From the NCBI GenBank assembly GCA_007131245.1, contig SLQX01000010.1:1-57776 (forward strand): DNA of 57,776 bases. Direction: 5' to 3'. The position numbers were made by a program, and so were the translations under genes. The stretch comes from Bacteroidales bacterium. GTDB taxonomy: Bacteria > Bacteroidota > Bacteroidia > Bacteroidales > UBA7960. Shown here one piece after another: positions 12,709 to 19,362 of the stretch; within the stretch, counting starts at the first letter, position 1; the number at the start of each line of letters is the position of its first letter. A model generated the notes under the pieces. That model had not been told where the DNA came from, did no database searches, and saw only the letters and a program-made list of their open reading frames with translations.

Positions 12709-13506
12709 TCATTGCATCCGTTGCCTCACTACTTCAAAAGCGATAACTGCCAGGGATGCCGAAACATTTAAAGAGTCTGTTTTTCCCAGCATGGGGATTT
12801 TAAGTTTCTCGTCTGCTGAGTTATACCAGATTTGGGATAGCCCTTCGGCTTCGGTTCCAAAAGCAATTGCCACAGGGGCATTCATATCTGCTTTAAAATA
12901 ATACTTTGACACCTGCAAAGAGGCTATCATAATTTTAATTTCATGTTTTTTAGCCCATTGGATAAACTCCTCAGACTTACATGTTGTAAGTTGGTTGGTA
13001 AAAATACTTCCCAGTGAAGAGCGAATTACATTAGGATTAAAAACATCTGTTTGGGGATTACAGACCACAACTGCATCTGCTGCACAAGCGTCAGCAGTGC
13101 GTAATACAGCTCCCAGGTTACCCGGCTTCTCAATCGACTCAAGAACCAAAATCAAAGGTGGTTGTTTGAATCGAATATCGTCAAGTTGGGTTTTGTATTG
13201 CCGGGCAAGGCCTATGATACCCTCAACATTTTTTCGGTAGGCCATCTTGTTATACACCTCCACCGAAACATTTCTTATCCTTGCTGCCGTTTTATTTAAA
13301 TGAACAGGGTATTGAGGGTCCTGCCGTAAAAGTTCATTACATAAAAACACTTGCTCCAGCTTAACACCTGCTTGCAAAGCCAGAGATACTTCTCTGGTTC
13401 CCTCAATGACAAAAAGTCCTTGCTTTGTCCGCTCCTGTGATTTTTGCTGAAGTCGGGCAAGTTGTTTCACCGCCGGGTTTTGTAAACTATTGATGGTGTC
13501 TTCCAT
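12709..13506 (-). CDS. SpoU/TrmH family RNA 2'-O-methyltransferase
   Basis: A 265-residue protein with an N-terminal substrate-binding domain (QERTKQGLFVIEGTREV, about residues 25-41) and a C-terminal SPOUT knot. The three SpoU motifs are present: ESIEKPGNLGAVLRTADA with the conserved N and R, the NPNVIRSSLGS segment, and IPMLGKTDSLNVSASLAVIAFE. It should methylate a ribose in rRNA or tRNA using SAM; the target is not predictable. A poor -7-like TACTTTCG lies at 13529-13536, 23 bases upstream of the ATG. Transcription is convergent with proline dehydrogenase. Confidence 0.88.
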   Translation of the reverse strand: MEDTINSLQNPAVKQLARLQQKSQERTKQGLFVIEGTREVSLALQAGVKLEQVFLCNELLRQDPQYPVHLNKTAARIRNVSVEVYNKMAYRKNVEGIIGLARQYKTQLDDIRFKQPPLILVLESIEKPGNLGAVLRTADACAADAVVVCNPQTDVFNPNVIRSSLGSIFTNQLTTCKSEEFIQWAKKHEIKIMIASLQVSKYYFKADMNAPVAIAFGTEAEGLSQIWYNSADEKLKIPMLGKTDSLNVSASLAVIAFEVVRQRMQ

Positions 13507-13582: not shown

Positions 13583-15988
13583 TTAAGGATTTTTTCTGAA
13601 GAAGACAAAAAAGGCAACCAGGTAGCATACCAATGCCATTGTCATCACCAGCCTGAAACCAAACTCCACTGCTGTAAGTGTAGCAATGGAAGTTGCTATC
13701 ACGGATAACGATCCATTGATACCCCATGCCCACGGAATTTGGTCTGATTTGTTTACGTTCAGAATGCGTATGCCGGAGGGAAATGGCATGCCCATAAACA
13801 AAGAAGGTATGGCAAGTAATACAAAAGCAATTAAAATCTTAACAGCCAGGGGAAAGCTGATGGTGTTAGTAAGCAATGGTGTCAGAAATAGGATATACCC
13901 CAGCAGAAGTACTGCAACTGTAAGGTTTGAAAACCTGGCAGCTTTGAAAGGATTCTTTACTTTTCCTGAAATCAGGCTTCCTAACCCGCTGGCAATCATC
14001 ATGGTGCTGATAACAGCTGAAATGGCGTATATAGGGTGTCCGAAATACAAGACAAAGCGTTGTATCAAAATGATCTCCACAAACATATACCCCAGCCCCA
14101 GTGCCCCAAAATAAAGAACCGTAGGCGTTTTGCCCCGGCTTGTACCCCTGAGTCTGAATAAAGGTAAAACAATTAGGATCAGTGCCAGCAATGCCCCCTG
14201 TATGAGGGTAACCCACACAATCAGGTATCCCAGCTCAAGAAAAGGCATGGATTCGGCTCCAAATTCATCTTGAAGCTTGTTAAGTGTTCCTGGTTTTAAA
14301 AACCGGCTGAAATAGGGTTTATCGTCTGTGGCAGGTTCTATGTGAAAATCATAATCATTAAACAACTTTGGCGAGGTGCTATGTACTATGGAGTCCAGGT
14401 ACTTAAAAAAAGAATCATCTTCCAGTTGGTTGTATTGTAGTCTTTCGGCGGGAGAAATATCAGGCAATAGTGCCGGGTCAAAGAGCATTGACTGAGCAAA
14501 ATCTCTGATTCGCTCTGTTTCAACACTGTTCAAGGGTGTTTTTTTGATAATAAACGTGATGGTTCCCCAACTTCTGACAGCTGCAATATGCTCAGAGGGA
14601 TTTTTAATATTTTTTTTGCGAAGGGTTTTCACAAGTGTGGAAGCGATTTTTAAGGTAGTTCTGGGGGGATAATCCATCCAGGAGCTTATGGCAATTACCC
14701 CTGAAGGTGATAGTTTATCCCACATTTGTCCAAAAGCTTCAATGGTCATGGAATAGTTTTCATTGAGGGCATTTAGCCCTGTCGACCCTCCAAAACTTTC
14801 CATGCGTGGTAAAATGATCGCATCAAAATGGTTATCAGGAACTGAGAACAAAAACTGTCTGCTATCCTGGTATACAATCTCTGTTTGGGGATGGTGAAAA
14901 AGATTATTGGATGCTGCTGAAAAGTCTTGTTGCATTAATTCTTTCACTCCTTTTACTTCAACAACCCCAAAAACCATTTGAGCGTTGTTTTGCAAGGCAT
15001 GTGCCACACTGGGACCTGTGGTGGCTTTGAGAATCAAAATTGTATCCCTGGGTGCTGTAATGTAGGGGAGTGCCTCTGTAGTGTAATCGTGGATATTGGT
15101 CCGGGAGGTGTCAAAATGGGGGATAACCCCATGAAACTCTGCATTGGAATAGAGGTGTTTCTTCACAGGAACATTACCAGTAAACTTCAGGCTTGTAGCC
15201 GGTGCATATCGCAGGGCGGGTGATTCAACAACGTCAATTTTACCATGAATGTCGGGCTTTGACAGTATGATTTCGGCTTCAGGGAGGTGTAAGGTGCGGG
15301 AAAGGCTTTTGTATTCCGACAGAGGTACACTCCCTGGTATGAAAAGGGCATAGAACACGGTTGCAATACCCAGTGATATGGCTGCAATGTTTAAAAGCTT
15401 TCTTTTATTTTGAAAAATGATGATGGCAGCCATAACTGAAAGAGAGGCAGTTGCTGGTAAAGCATCAATAGCAAAATACCTGCTAAGTAAAAATACCACG
15501 AAAAGACCTCCCAATCCCGAACCCAACAGGTTTGAAAAATAATATCGTCCAATATGTTTGGCATGCTCCATAAATAGAATCCCGATAGCAATAGCTCCCA
15601 GGAAAAACGGCATGAAAAAAATCAGATAATTTGCAGCAAGGATGGGAAATTGTGCTCTTTCAACAAAAATCAGGTAAACATCAAACTGAAATAGTGGCAG
15701 GCGGGCCAAATAAAAAGAGATGACCATAAACATACCGGACAGGGCCATCAACAATGGAACAACCCATTGAGAATGTGTTAGTAGCCTGTTTTTAAAAAGA
15801 GCAAGGATGGTGCCGGCAGCACCAAAACCCAGCATGGCAATGGAAATAATCATGTAAGCAAAATGATACCATTGCATGAGCGAAATAAGCTGCATCAATA
15901 CAAGCTGGAATGCAATGATTGCTGCAGAGTGTAGCCCCAGCGCCAAAATCAGTCTTGACTCATAAACAGGTTTTATTTTTGCCAGCAT
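13583..15988 (-). CDS. Polytopic membrane protein with spermidine synthase-like domain
   Basis: An 801-residue protein in three parts: about six to seven N-terminal membrane segments (residues 10-235), a soluble Rossmann-like region (about 240-550), and another set of membrane segments (about 570-801). The middle region resembles spermidine/spermine synthases and related methyltransferases: GVVEVKG, YQDSRQFLF and FDAIILPR sit where the cofactor-binding acid, the D-x-R motif and the following strand are expected. The first glycine-rich loop reads ILKATTGPSVAHAL rather than G-G-G-x-G, so cofactor binding may be altered or lost. The gene starts 14 bases after the PCMT gene and is surely in its operon. 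Substrate and function are unknown. Confidence 0.75.
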   Translation of the reverse strand: MLAKIKPVYESRLILALGLHSAAIIAFQLVLMQLISLMQWYHFAYMIISIAMLGFGAAGTILALFKNRLLTHSQWVVPLLMALSGMFMVISFYLARLPLFQFDVYLIFVERAQFPILAANYLIFFMPFFLGAIAIGILFMEHAKHIGRYYFSNLLGSGLGGLFVVFLLSRYFAIDALPATASLSVMAAIIIFQNKRKLLNIAAISLGIATVFYALFIPGSVPLSEYKSLSRTLHLPEAEIILSKPDIHGKIDVVESPALRYAPATSLKFTGNVPVKKHLYSNAEFHGVIPHFDTSRTNIHDYTTEALPYITAPRDTILILKATTGPSVAHALQNNAQMVFGVVEVKGVKELMQQDFSAASNNLFHHPQTEIVYQDSRQFLFSVPDNHFDAIILPRMESFGGSTGLNALNENYSMTIEAFGQMWDKLSPSGVIAISSWMDYPPRTTLKIASTLVKTLRKKNIKNPSEHIAAVRSWGTITFIIKKTPLNSVETERIRDFAQSMLFDPALLPDISPAERLQYNQLEDDSFFKYLDSIVHSTSPKLFNDYDFHIEPATDDKPYFSRFLKPGTLNKLQDEFGAESMPFLELGYLIVWVTLIQGALLALILIVLPLFRLRGTSRGKTPTVLYFGALGLGYMFVEIILIQRFVLYFGHPIYAISAVISTMMIASGLGSLISGKVKNPFKAARFSNLTVAVLLLGYILFLTPLLTNTISFPLAVKILIAFVLLAIPSLFMGMPFPSGIRILNVNKSDQIPWAWGINGSLSVIATSIATLTAVEFGFRLVMTMALVCYLVAFFVFFRKNP

Positions 15989-16002
15989 AATTAAGAGGGA
16001 GA

Positions 16003-16695
16003 TTAGTCAGATGATGTAAAGGGTACAAATCTAACAGGCATGAGACTTCTGGATGTAATGTCGTCTCCGGTTTTTTCCACCAGCATAAGTTGTTGCACTC
16101 TGAATGGTGATCCCACCGGAATGATCATCTTTCCTCCATCTTTCAGTTGATTGATGAGGGGCGGGGGGATATGTTCAGCAGCAGCTGTTACCACAATGGC
16201 ATCAAAAGGTGCGTGTTCCTCCCATCCGTAATAGCCGTCAGCAATTTTTACACTCACATTGTCATAGTGTTCCTCCAAAATCTTTTGGGCTCTTTTGCCC
16301 AGCTCTTCCACAATCTCTATGGTATAAACATGATCCACTATTTCTGCCAGCACTGCAGCCTGGTAGCCTGACCCTGTGCCTATCTCCAGGACACTGAAGT
16401 TTTCCCTTGGTTGGATGATTTCGGTCATATAACCTACAATATAAGGCTGAGAGATGGTTTGTCCGTAACCGATGGGTAAGGGACGATCGTTGTAGGCCTG
16501 CCTTTGCACATTGGAAGGTACATATATGTGGCGTGGAACAGCACGCATTGCATCCAGGGTGGGTTGGTGGCGAATTCCCCGGTTGCGGATCTGGTTTTCT
16601 ACCATATCGTTGCGTTGACTCTGGTATTGCTGGGAGAATCCTGGTGCTGATAAGATAGCAAGTAATGAAATTAAGGTAATCAGTGCTTTTATCAT
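16003..16695 (-). CDS. pcm: Protein-L-isoaspartate O-methyltransferase with signal peptide
   Basis: A 230-residue SAM-dependent enzyme that starts repair of isoaspartyl residues in damaged proteins. SAM motif I is VLEIGTGSGYQAAVLAEI (about residues 99-116), with post-motif IVEELGKRAQ and motif II PFDAIVVTAAAEHIPP. PLPIGYGQTISQPYIV is the family's signature near the active site. Unlike cytosolic Pcm, it begins with a typical signal peptide (about residues 1-21: MIKAL, hydrophobic core, then FSQQ), so it should act in the periplasm, where SAM supply is a puzzle. It is the first gene of an operon with the spermidine-synthase-like membrane protein. Confidence 0.9.
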   Translation of the reverse strand: MIKALITLISLLAILSAPGFSQQYQSQRNDMVENQIRNRGIRHQPTLDAMRAVPRHIYVPSNVQRQAYNDRPLPIGYGQTISQPYIVGYMTEIIQPRENFSVLEIGTGSGYQAAVLAEIVDHVYTIEIVEELGKRAQKILEEHYDNVSVKIADGYYGWEEHAPFDAIVVTAAAEHIPPPLINQLKDGGKMIIPVGSPFRVQQLMLVEKTGDDITSRSLMPVRFVPFTSSD

Positions 16696-16717
16696 GACTT
16701 TGTTTTTTGGCGTTAAG

Positions 16718-16748
16718 CAAATATAAGCAATCCCCGAAAAAGGGGCAA
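16718..16748 (-). promoter_or_regulatory. Promoter of the pcm operon
   Basis: On the minus strand there is TTG (16748-16746), a 20-base spacer and TATATTTG (16725-16718), ending 23 bases before the ATG at 16695. The spacer holds a small CCCC/GGGG inverted repeat (16732-16745) that could be an operator but may be chance. Confidence 0.68.
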
Positions 16749-16965: not shown

Positions 16966-19362
16966 ATGTATCGCTTTATCATCTTTCTGTCTTTGGTTTC
17001 GATTTCCTTTTTACCCTACACAACAAAGGGGCAGGTAAGTGTTGACTCCATTTACAAAAGTCTGGAGAAGTATGACTCTCTTTTTCCCCGACACAAAATA
17101 CATTTACATACCGATAAAGACACTTATCACGCCAGTGATGTTGTTTGGTTGAAAGCATATGTAGTATCTGCCATCACCCATCAGCCTGCTACAGATGTAA
17201 AAACCCTTTATGTGGAAATTTTTAATACTACAGGCGATTTATACAGCCGAAAAAGGTTAAACGTTGAAGAAGGCTATGCAAAAGGTGAATTTTTTCTTAA
17301 GGACTCTATTCTTGCTGGTAATTATGTAATCCGTGCCTATACCTCTTGGATGCTTAACTTTGATAACAGGAATATTTTCGAAAAAGTATTTCATATAGAA
17401 AACCCGCTTAGTATAAATTTGATAAGTCGTCGCCAGGTAAGAAAAAACAGAAGGACTAACCAGCAAATTGAAAGAGCCCGCCAGCAATATAAATTCAATT
17501 ATTATCCTGAGGGAGGTGTTTTGGTTGAAGGCGTAAACAACCGTGTGGCTTTTAAAGCTACGAATGAACTAGGGCAGGATGTTGAAATAAAAGCAAAACT
17601 CATTAATGATAATAAAAATGAAGTTTTGTCCATAAAATCTCCTTACGGCGGTAAAGGTATGTTTGAGTTTATCCCGTCTGCCGGTAGTAACTATAGCTTG
17701 CTCATTGAGTTTCCAGGTGATGAGTCTCAAAGATACAGGATTCGGGATATTGTATCATCAGGTAATACTTTACAGGTAAGACCATTGGAGGGGGAGTTTG
17801 AAATTATTGTAGATGGGTCTTTCCCCGCGGGGCAAATTCCACCTGAAAGAAACCCGTTATATTTGGCTGTTCATTCCCGGGGTAAAATAGTTGATATCTA
17901 TCAAATAGAAAATGATGCTCTGCCTTACCGACTTGTTTTGCAAAATGATACTCTAATGCCAGGTATTTCCGTGGCAGGGCTTTTTAACAGCAAAGGTGAG
18001 GTAATTGCCGAACGTTTGTTTTTTGTGCCACCCCCGGAATCAAACCCATTTTCGATTTCAAAACAAACTTTTTCTGATAGTACCGTCCGGCTAACAGTTG
18101 ATGCACAACAACCAATCATTGATACTGCATCTTTTTCAGTTGCCGTCAGTGCTTCGCATAAAGCACCTGATTTTCCGGATAATAATATTTTAACCACCCT
18201 TTTTATTACATCCGACATTTCTTCTACCATCGAAAACCCCCATGCATATCTGTCAGCAAAAGAAACCAAAGAGGCAGATTTATTAATGATGGTGTCAGGC
18301 TGGAAAAGGTATAGCTGGCAGGATATACAACAAGGAAACTATCCTGATATTAAATATAAAAGGGAGCAGGATGGGTTTTCTGTCTATGGCCATATTGAGC
18401 CCACTGAACGCTCGCAAGCCCTTGGTGAAACAATATTTGATGTTACACTCCAGGTTGAAGATGAACAAAAAGTACATGCTGTTCAAACAGATTATGATGG
18501 CGAATTTCAATTTGATGGATTCAACAAACACGGCAGTTATGAAGCTCGTTTAACGATTCAGGAAAAGAATAAAAAAAGTTTACAGGCTCTTGAACTTTTT
18601 CCCAAAAGAGTTTCAATGGATGATTACCCTCTAAGCTTTTATTATCAGGAGCTTAGTGAGAAAAGGTCTCCCAGGGCATGGTTCTCATTTTCTGGTGCTC
18701 CGGAAATCAGGAAAACAGACAGGTATTTAACTTTTTTCAAAAAATCATCGGCCCGTTCCTATGGCAGAGCCGATCAGGTCATACATTTAAAAGCAAACGA
18801 TGAACGTTACAACACATTGCGGGATGTTTTGGTCAGAAGTGTAGCCGGTGTACAGATAGAGGGCAACTCAATTACGCTCAGAGGCAAAAGCAGTGTTTAT
18901 TTTTCTAACCAACCCCTTTTACTGGTTGATGGCAGTGAGTTTACCAGTCGTCAGTTTTTAGTCATTCCCACCATTGAGGTTTCCCGCCTGGAGGTGTTTA
19001 AGGGAAGCAGTGCAACAATATTTGGATTGAGGGGTGCCAACGGTGTATTGTATGCTCATACCCGCCGTGGTCAGTTGCCCGAAAGAGTTATTATTGAATA
19101 TGTGCTGGATGGTTACTACGTGAGTAAAGAGTTTTCGGAGGTTGATGTTAAAGCAGATGAATTATTCAGAGAAAGCCTGGATTATGACAAAACGGTTTAT
19201 TGGGAGCCTGCCCTGAACTTTGAAAGCCAAAGCCCCCACGTGATTAACATCTCATTTGACAAACTTCCAGCCTATCTGATAATGACTATCGAAGGTGTAG
19301 ATGGCCAGGGAAATGTTTATTTTACACGGGAGGTTTTTAAAAACGATACATCAAGCCGCTAG
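16966..19362 (+). CDS. Exported protein with MG2-like domain and C-terminal TonB plug domain, no barrel
   Basis: A 798-residue protein with a signal peptide (about residues 1-22). After it comes a segment with HLHTDKDTYHASDVVWLKAYV and a following YVEIFN...GNYVIRAYTSWM, which resembles the MG2 beta-domain of alpha-2-macroglobulins. Further beta-rich domains follow. Residues about 612-705 read as a TonB-dependent receptor plug: LRDVLVRSVAGVQIEGN, ITLRG, LLLVDGSEF, IEVSRLEVFKGSSATIFGLRGANGVL. Only about 90 residues follow, far too few for a 22-strand barrel. Such barrel-less plug proteins occur in Bacteroidota and their job is unclear. It converges on the acyl-CoA reductase gene with a 24-base gap. 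Confidence 0.75.
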   Translation: MYRFIIFLSLVSISFLPYTTKGQVSVDSIYKSLEKYDSLFPRHKIHLHTDKDTYHASDVVWLKAYVVSAITHQPATDVKTLYVEIFNTTGDLYSRKRLNVEEGYAKGEFFLKDSILAGNYVIRAYTSWMLNFDNRNIFEKVFHIENPLSINLISRRQVRKNRRTNQQIERARQQYKFNYYPEGGVLVEGVNNRVAFKATNELGQDVEIKAKLINDNKNEVLSIKSPYGGKGMFEFIPSAGSNYSLLIEFPGDESQRYRIRDIVSSGNTLQVRPLEGEFEIIVDGSFPAGQIPPERNPLYLAVHSRGKIVDIYQIENDALPYRLVLQNDTLMPGISVAGLFNSKGEVIAERLFFVPPPESNPFSISKQTFSDSTVRLTVDAQQPIIDTASFSVAVSASHKAPDFPDNNILTTLFITSDISSTIENPHAYLSAKETKEADLLMMVSGWKRYSWQDIQQGNYPDIKYKREQDGFSVYGHIEPTERSQALGETIFDVTLQVEDEQKVHAVQTDYDGEFQFDGFNKHGSYEARLTIQEKNKKSLQALELFPKRVSMDDYPLSFYYQELSEKRSPRAWFSFSGAPEIRKTDRYLTFFKKSSARSYGRADQVIHLKANDERYNTLRDVLVRSVAGVQIEGNSITLRGKSSVYFSNQPLLLVDGSEFTSRQFLVIPTIEVSRLEVFKGSSATIFGLRGANGVLYAHTRRGQLPERVIIEYVLDGYYVSKEFSEVDVKADELFRESLDYDKTVYWEPALNFESQSPHVINISFDKLPAYLIMTIEGVDGQGNVYFTREVFKNDTSSR

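Follow-up and report, generated by a model that had tools for sequence, protein, structure and literature searches.

The gene pair and its features

Two adjacent genes lie on the minus strand of a 57,776-nucleotide stretch of DNA from a Bacteroidales bacterium (contig SLQX01000010.1; hereafter the window). The first encodes a protein-L-isoaspartate O-methyltransferase (PCMT) of 230 amino acids at positions 16003-16695. The second, located 14 bases downstream, encodes a polytopic membrane protein of 801 amino acids at positions 13583-15988, hereafter the partner. An earlier note, made from the letters alone, had located both genes correctly; it had further proposed that the PCMT acts outside the cytosol and that the partner either handles a substrate related to S-adenosylmethionine (SAM) or is a non-catalytic relative of SAM-type enzymes. 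PCMT is familiar as a repair enzyme of the cytosol that consumes SAM, and SAM is not normally thought to occur outside that compartment. The pair comprises the following features:

16003-16695, minus strand: exported-type PCMT, 230 amino acids (open reading frame; matches to PF01135, NF001453 and PDB entries)
16633-16695, minus strand: predicted signal peptide at PCMT residues 1-21 (seen in the sequence itself; paired homologues share a hydrophobic N-terminus; cleavage presumed after S21)
13583-15988, minus strand: membrane partner, 801 amino acids, major facilitator superfamily (MFS) fold interrupted by a spermidine-synthase-fold domain (open reading frame; AlphaFold2 model; fold matches)
15341-15973, minus strand: transmembrane helices 1-7 of the partner, residues 6-216 (model helices; hydropathy; lysine and arginine pattern)
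14234-15337, minus strand: middle domain of the partner, residues 218-585, spermidine-synthase fold, predicted periplasmic (VIA-align match to 1uir; charge pattern, loop 7)
15005-15034, minus strand: degenerate glycine loop ILKATTGPSV of the partner, residues 319-328 (sequence; comparison with relatives)
14807-14809, minus strand: Pro394 of the partner, at the place of the first Asp in the aminopropyltransferase IIDLTDP motif (alignment to 1uir)
13604-14233, minus strand: transmembrane helices 8-14 of the partner, residues 586-795, MFS half (model of residues 578-801 alone)

The gene pair is conserved across several phyla

We surveyed gene order around homologues of the partner, since the earlier note had made its proposal depend on conservation of the pair. 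Among all non-redundant loci that could be judged, a PCMT gene adjoined the partner gene in 63 of 64, across several phyla. This total combines 11 loci from a contig scan, 18 from relatives of the host, 13 of 14 from a phylum sample, and 21 from the class of Candidatus Thiodiazotropha (which we take to be Gammaproteobacteria), with repeats removed. In the contig scan, whose seeds were six peptide patterns from the window partner and which reaches only part of the family, the PCMT gene was directly upstream on the same strand at 11 of 11 loci. The partner was found in 21 of 41 genomes of relatives (the host's own included) and a PCMT gene adjoined it in all 21; contig ends interrupt the partner in G015 and G021, where the PCMT lies beside its N-terminal piece, and three of the 21 genomes carry the same proteins as loci L008-L010. 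Partner-family matches were detected in 32 of the 296 genomes of the phylum sample, 15 of them strong (at least 590 bits), and 14 of these 15 had a same-strand PCMT gene within 656 bases; in the sole exception, G243 (locus L086), an exported-type PCMT is encoded on another contig. For the Thiodiazotropha class, 27 of 185 genomes contained a match at E = 1e-40, 23 of which were strong; all 22 that could be judged were paired, and the remaining locus, L150, begins at the end of a contig. Intergenic spacing was between -30 and +51 bases in 55 of the 63 paired loci, with overlap in 14. One more paired locus, L196, was picked up by a PCMT search and stands outside the 63 of 64.

The association also extends to plasmids. 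Seventeen plasmid records matched the partner family, and in four of the five opened (from Phyllobacterium zundukense, Microvirga, Paraburkholderia, and Sinorhizobium) a PCMT gene was upstream on the same strand; the fifth, from Rhizobium jaguaris (L211, 517 bits), encodes a distant, Tat-like PCMT relative arranged head-to-head. No PCMT gene was found within approximately 1.5 kb at the 18 loci read of weaker relatives scoring below 420 bits (L087-L101, L170-L172), and an intermediate homologue, L169 (489 bits), has a divergent PCMT (139 bits) adjacent to it. At both L211 and L169, the divergent partner stands beside a divergent PCMT-like protein of approximately 300 amino acids.

These surveys, in which conservation of the pair held up, indicate that the pairing is more than chance. 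It is very probable that the two genes form a real, conserved extracytoplasmic module.

This pattern is mirrored in the phylogeny of the partner and in its distribution. A tree of 78 partner-family proteins (quick search) contained one branch, with a Shimodaira-Hasegawa-like approximate likelihood ratio test (SH-aLRT) value of 100, that separates 16 unlinked proteins from the rest. The resulting linked clade of 62 comprises 60 proteins with an adjacent PCMT (the window partner and L169 included), L150 at its contig end, and L086, which is not adjacent. In the phylum sample, an exported-type PCMT scoring at least 214 bits was present in all 15 genomes with a strong partner (in one of which, G087, its N-terminus is cut off) vs. 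13 of the 281 others (naive hypergeometric p = 6e-18, uncorrected for relatedness). We also looked for other exported methyltransferases beside the unlinked relatives; inspection by eye of approximately 1.5 kb at each of 16 loci found no such pattern.

The window PCMT has an intact catalytic domain, and most paired PCMTs have hydrophobic N-termini

Database searches showed that the window PCMT resembles Pcm/PIMT proteins throughout its catalytic domain. Residues 27-228 match the full-length Pfam domain PF01135 (E = 1.1e-63; 215 bits, cut-off 20.3), the protein scores 240 bits against the NCBIfam model NF001453 (cut-off 188), and a PDB search matched 12 distinct sequences, 11 of them named PCMT (best match 2yxe, E = 1.2e-49). 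It also carries the sequences VLEIGTGSGYQAAV and TISQP, which we take to be the SAM motif I and the active-site motif TISxP, respectively; the former is present in 60 and the latter in all 63 of the paired PCMTs. The window PCMT differs from Pcm/PIMT in having a signal-like N-terminus and in being accompanied by a second, cytosolic-type copy in the same genome. A partial parallel is provided by CI-PIMT of Paracoccus, described in PMC11522691 as a PCMT-like subunit on the hydrophilic domain of complex I with obstructed substrate binding. Both cases involve one of two PCMT paralogues being dedicated to a membrane complex, and CI-PIMT is unlike the window PCMT, which has a signal-like N-terminus and intact motifs.

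The N-terminus of the window PCMT, MIKALITLISLLAILSAPGFSQ, is hydrophobic and, judged by eye, resembles a signal peptide. We compared 115 PCMTs (the 116 rows of the PCMT tree, less L038, which is a piece of the gene already represented by L040) by their best 12-residue mean hydropathy ahead of the PCMT domain, with 2.0 as the threshold. This threshold was reached by 57 of the 63 paired PCMTs, 35 of the 37 unpaired ones, and all four linked to a permease. Six paired PCMTs fell below it: L076, which is truncated by the end of its contig, and five others scoring 1.41-1.98. Eight of the 11 cytosolic-type PCMTs were long enough to measure and none reached 2.0, a descriptive result given that this group was mostly assigned after viewing the N-termini. 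The host itself encodes one other strong PF01135 match (192 bits, contig C273), which is without a hydrophobic N-terminus, and five weaker matches (21.6-46.7 bits) that are probably other methyltransferases. Each of seven distant hosts of the pair likewise has at least a second PCMT match; the three second copies that were read all lack a hydrophobic N-terminus. The proposed location of the paired PCMTs outside the cytosol is therefore supported by their N-termini, but not proven.

We additionally considered export through the twin-arginine translocation (Tat) pathway with SAM bound. This was rejected, as a simple pattern for the twin-arginine motif was absent from all 115 N-termini. The divergent PCMT relative at L211, on the Rhizobium plasmid and outside these 115, contains MKRRDFL near its start and looks Tat-like.

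The partner combines an MFS fold with a predicted periplasmic domain

Following a suggestion of the earlier note, we modelled the partner, using AlphaFold2 and a 12-row alignment (A1), and inspected its pocket. The model (predicted local distance difference test score, pLDDT, 86.2; predicted template modelling score, pTM, 0.86) consists of seven transmembrane helices, a mixed domain at approximately residues 218-585, and seven further transmembrane helices. In a Foldseek search with the whole model, spermidine synthases and other aminopropyltransferases ranked first (1uir, E = 1.3e-7). VIA-align, which re-examines only chains ranked by Foldseek, matched the middle domain to 1uir over 267 residues (Z = 20.9; root-mean-square deviation, rmsd, 3.5) and the whole model to SV2A (Z = 26.9; 351 residues, rmsd 3.9) and FLVCR2 (Z = 22.4; 357 residues, rmsd 4.3). 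MFS proteins accounted for two of the 50 whole-model matches listed and the remainder were mostly spermidine synthases, and hence the C-terminal part was modelled separately.

The stand-alone model of residues 578-801 had a pLDDT of 88.4. Its best 50 VIA-align matches listed had Z = 17.9-19.4 and, from their names, we take them all to be MFS transporters. All Foldseek E-values for this part were above 0.001, the best being 0.013 for FLVCR2, so the fold is clear and kinship within the MFS is not. In these models, the transmembrane part of the partner has the MFS fold, made up of two halves, and the separately modelled segment corresponds to its C-terminal half. No MFS model in Pfam or NCBIfam matched any of 12 partner-family members at E = 0.01, though such profiles miss distant MFS members. 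The partner resembles the proteins that NCBI names 'fused MFS/spermidine synthase', in which an MFS-fold transmembrane part and a synthase part occupy one chain; its clade differs from them in the absence of those profile matches and in having an exported-type PCMT as neighbor.

Charge distribution predicts the orientation of the partner. In the linked clade (n = 62), lysine and arginine residues per loop numbered 2.0, 2.6, 1.8, 2.5, 4.2, 3.3, 1.5, and 1.8 for the even loops, compared to 0.4, 1.5, 0.0, 0.9, 1.0, and 0.0 for the odd loops, among which the middle domain forms loop 7 (after the third value). The same bias toward even loops was observed in the 12-protein set and in the 16 unlinked relatives. 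With positive charge favoring the even loops, the middle domain is predicted to be outside, facing the periplasm on the same side as the PCMT.

The middle domain has lost a key residue of aminopropyltransferases

Sequence searches gave few indications of the fold of the middle domain. The best NCBIfam match of the partner to a spermidine synthase model was NF002956 at 20.9 bits (cut-off 472), no Pfam model matched at E = 1, and the best PDB match by sequence had an E-value of 0.49; among the 12 partner-family members, one matched PF01564 (E = 1.4e-8). The resemblance to spermidine synthases that had been noticed earlier is thus weak by sequence and clear in the model. Like SpeE and other polyamine aminopropyltransferases (PF01564), the domain has the spermidine-synthase fold and weak profile similarity; it differs from them in its insertion between transmembrane helices 7 and 8, its predicted periplasmic place, its relaxed glycine loop, and the replacement of the first Asp in the IIDLTDP motif.

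When the family profile was aligned to 1uir (E = 1.5e-6), Pro394 fell at the first Asp of this motif, the catalytic Asp of aminopropyltransferases, and residue 397 at the second. We counted residues at these and other pocket positions in the 62 linked-clade and 16 unlinked proteins. An acid at position 394 was observed in 1/62 linked and 0/16 unlinked proteins, D or E at 397 in 50/62 and 1/16, and R377 in 62/62 and 16/16. Acids on strand 2 (position 343 or 344) and strand 3 (position 375), presumably where aminopropyltransferases bind ribose and adenine, were kept in 53/62 and 46/62 linked proteins, respectively, vs. 16/16 unlinked proteins in both cases. Two or more glycines were present in the loop of 49/62 linked vs. 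16/16 unlinked proteins; comparison with relatives bore out the earlier description of the loop ILKATTGPSV as degenerate.

Aminopropyltransferase activity of the partner was rejected on the basis of the replaced first Asp. Together with the more relaxed SAM-type loop, this loss suggests that the middle domain is probably non-catalytic.

Proposed function of the pair and alternative explanations

The earlier note had offered two ideas for the partner, namely that it handles SAM or that it is a non-catalytic relative of an enzyme. These are not mutually exclusive: the MFS fold and predicted periplasmic domain fit the former, while the loss of the catalytic Asp favors the latter. Our own preferred explanation, held tentatively and with somewhat less than even confidence, combines the two: the partner would be the dedicated transporter of an extracytoplasmic isoaspartate-methylation module, most likely for SAM or S-adenosylhomocysteine (SAH), with the middle domain as a docking or ligand site. 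Under this proposal, the exported PCMT would methylate isoaspartyl residues in envelope or secreted proteins; envelope proteins are long-lived and also age. The MFS part would carry a small molecule that is required or produced by this reaction, most likely exporting SAM, importing SAH, or both; the periplasmic domain would not be an enzyme but a platform for binding a ligand or docking the PCMT. The most specific version, in which the partner exchanges SAM and SAH over the inner membrane and its pseudo-aminopropyltransferase domain hands the cofactor to an exported, envelope-repairing PCMT, is doubtful.

SAM/SAH handling is favored by the MFS fold, the side on which the domain lies, the need of PCMT for SAM, and retention of the acids at the ribose and adenine places in 53 and 46 of the 62 linked proteins. 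A permease gene that follows exported-type PCMT genes in another lineage, described below, also counts in favor of our preferred explanation. Several observations weigh against it. Judging from the residue counts, the linked proteins have kept their SAM-type pocket less strictly than the unlinked relatives, and the loop of the window partner has glycine at only one of four places. The MFS fold itself reveals no transport substrate. Among the 28 genomes of the phylum sample with an exported-type PCMT, the partner is present in 15 and lacking in 13, which speaks against SAM supply as a general need. A partner-family search at E = 1e-5 likewise found no match in those 13; in the other eight of the 21 genomes searched, G243 has the partner, three gave faint matches (25-40 bits), and four gave none. 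Given that all 15 partner genomes contain the PCMT, the partner goes with the PCMT and not the reverse. A simple single-origin history is also disfavored: in the PCMT tree (116 rows, L038 included and L180 left out; quick search), the paired copies do not form one clade and six changes are needed, three of them forced by starred branches. As unpaired exported-type copies are scattered among the paired ones, pairing may have been gained or lost repeatedly on the PCMT side.

An alternative is that the partner is a membrane-anchored pseudoenzyme whose periplasmic domain serves the PCMT as a docking site or activator and brings it envelope substrates, with the MFS part no longer transporting and SAM arriving otherwise. 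The replaced catalytic Asp, the relaxed SAM loop, and the existence of lone exported-type PCMTs that do without a partner are all consistent with such a scaffold. Moreover, 14 of the 22 clade-specific positions of the partner are in the domain (Y226, R260, A262, P263, S266, W437, R443, W474, F503, N520, Y546, F548, F563, and E585), but this is not significantly above its share of the length (368/801; binomial p = 0.07). The second transmembrane half is also as well conserved as the middle domain (mean conservation 0.53 vs. 0.50) and includes E638 and Q643 inside a transmembrane helix, which would be superfluous in a mere anchor. We regard the scaffold explanation as rather unlikely.

It is likewise unlikely, and slightly more so, that the partner transports some other substrate or product of the reaction, such as a polyamine or isoaspartyl peptides. 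For the C-terminal half, Foldseek listed POT peptide transporters and, ranked first, FLVCR choline transporters (E = 0.013-0.05), and the fold of the domain is that of polyamine enzymes. However, rank within the MFS is uninformative on substrate when all E-values exceed 0.001, and the domain is without the catalytic Asp of polyamine synthesis. We consider it improbable that the middle domain catalyzes a new kind of reaction, with SAM or a similar molecule, on the envelope substrate that the PCMT acts on. R377, D389, G404, T415, E417, G430, and D555 are kept in at least 90% of the linked clade, and an acid at position 397 distinguishes most linked from unlinked proteins; yet the unlinked relatives keep all of those residues but G404, which points to fold rather than to a PCMT-linked activity, the SAM loop and first Asp are degenerate, and residues 402-405 of the model have a pLDDT below 50. 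Finally, it is very improbable that the signal peptide stays uncleaved and tethers a cytosolic PCMT to the membrane: some N-termini have no obvious cleavage site, but the second PCMT copies of the host and of three distant hosts are without such an N-terminus, the domain of the partner is predicted to be outside, and a Sec-type signal-anchor protein with a positive n-region has a cytosolic N-terminus that still puts the catalytic domain outside.

Under the more doubtful version with SAM/SAH exchange, the partner would give the periplasm its own methylation chemistry. The pair opens a concrete genetic route to asking whether SAM-dependent methylation takes place outside the cytosol and by what means it is supplied. 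In addition, one clade of membrane proteins that combine an MFS and a spermidine-synthase fold gains a likely partner, where the libraries searched with 12 members offer no function. Among the open-licence papers listed in full-text searches, judged from titles and abstract openings, none was on the pair; this absence is weak evidence.

Other neighbors of PCMT genes and of the pair

A second pairing with a transporter was observed for exported-type PCMTs. In one lineage of such PCMTs, an amino acid permease gene directly follows the PCMT gene in five genomes, from three families that belong to a single order (L174/L066, L175, L178/L065, L179, and L180); the three permeases scanned all belong to PF13520 (E = 1e-50 or better). 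The yeast SAM permease Sam3 is of the same family. The permease is missing from L176 and L181, and L177 is too short to judge. Separately, L002 and L068 both have three similar small genes after a cytosolic-type PCMT gene; these are reminiscent of SiaB/SiaC-type regulators.

Downstream of the pair in the window, a methyltransferase gene lies 76 bases away:

12709-13506, minus strand: SpoU-family rRNA methyltransferase, RlmB-like (PF00588, E = 6.3e-33)

Its homologue is present at the loci of 20 of the 21 host-family genomes with a partner, the other locus ending inside the partner. No homologue was found in L011-L018 or L073-L086, which rules out a larger conserved operon with this gene and places it outside the core pair. 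The window has no Rfam match at the gathering score. On the other side of the pair, positions 16966-19362 encode a divergent neighbor, a 798-amino-acid protein that matches the TonB plug domain and, at a score under the cut-off, MG2.

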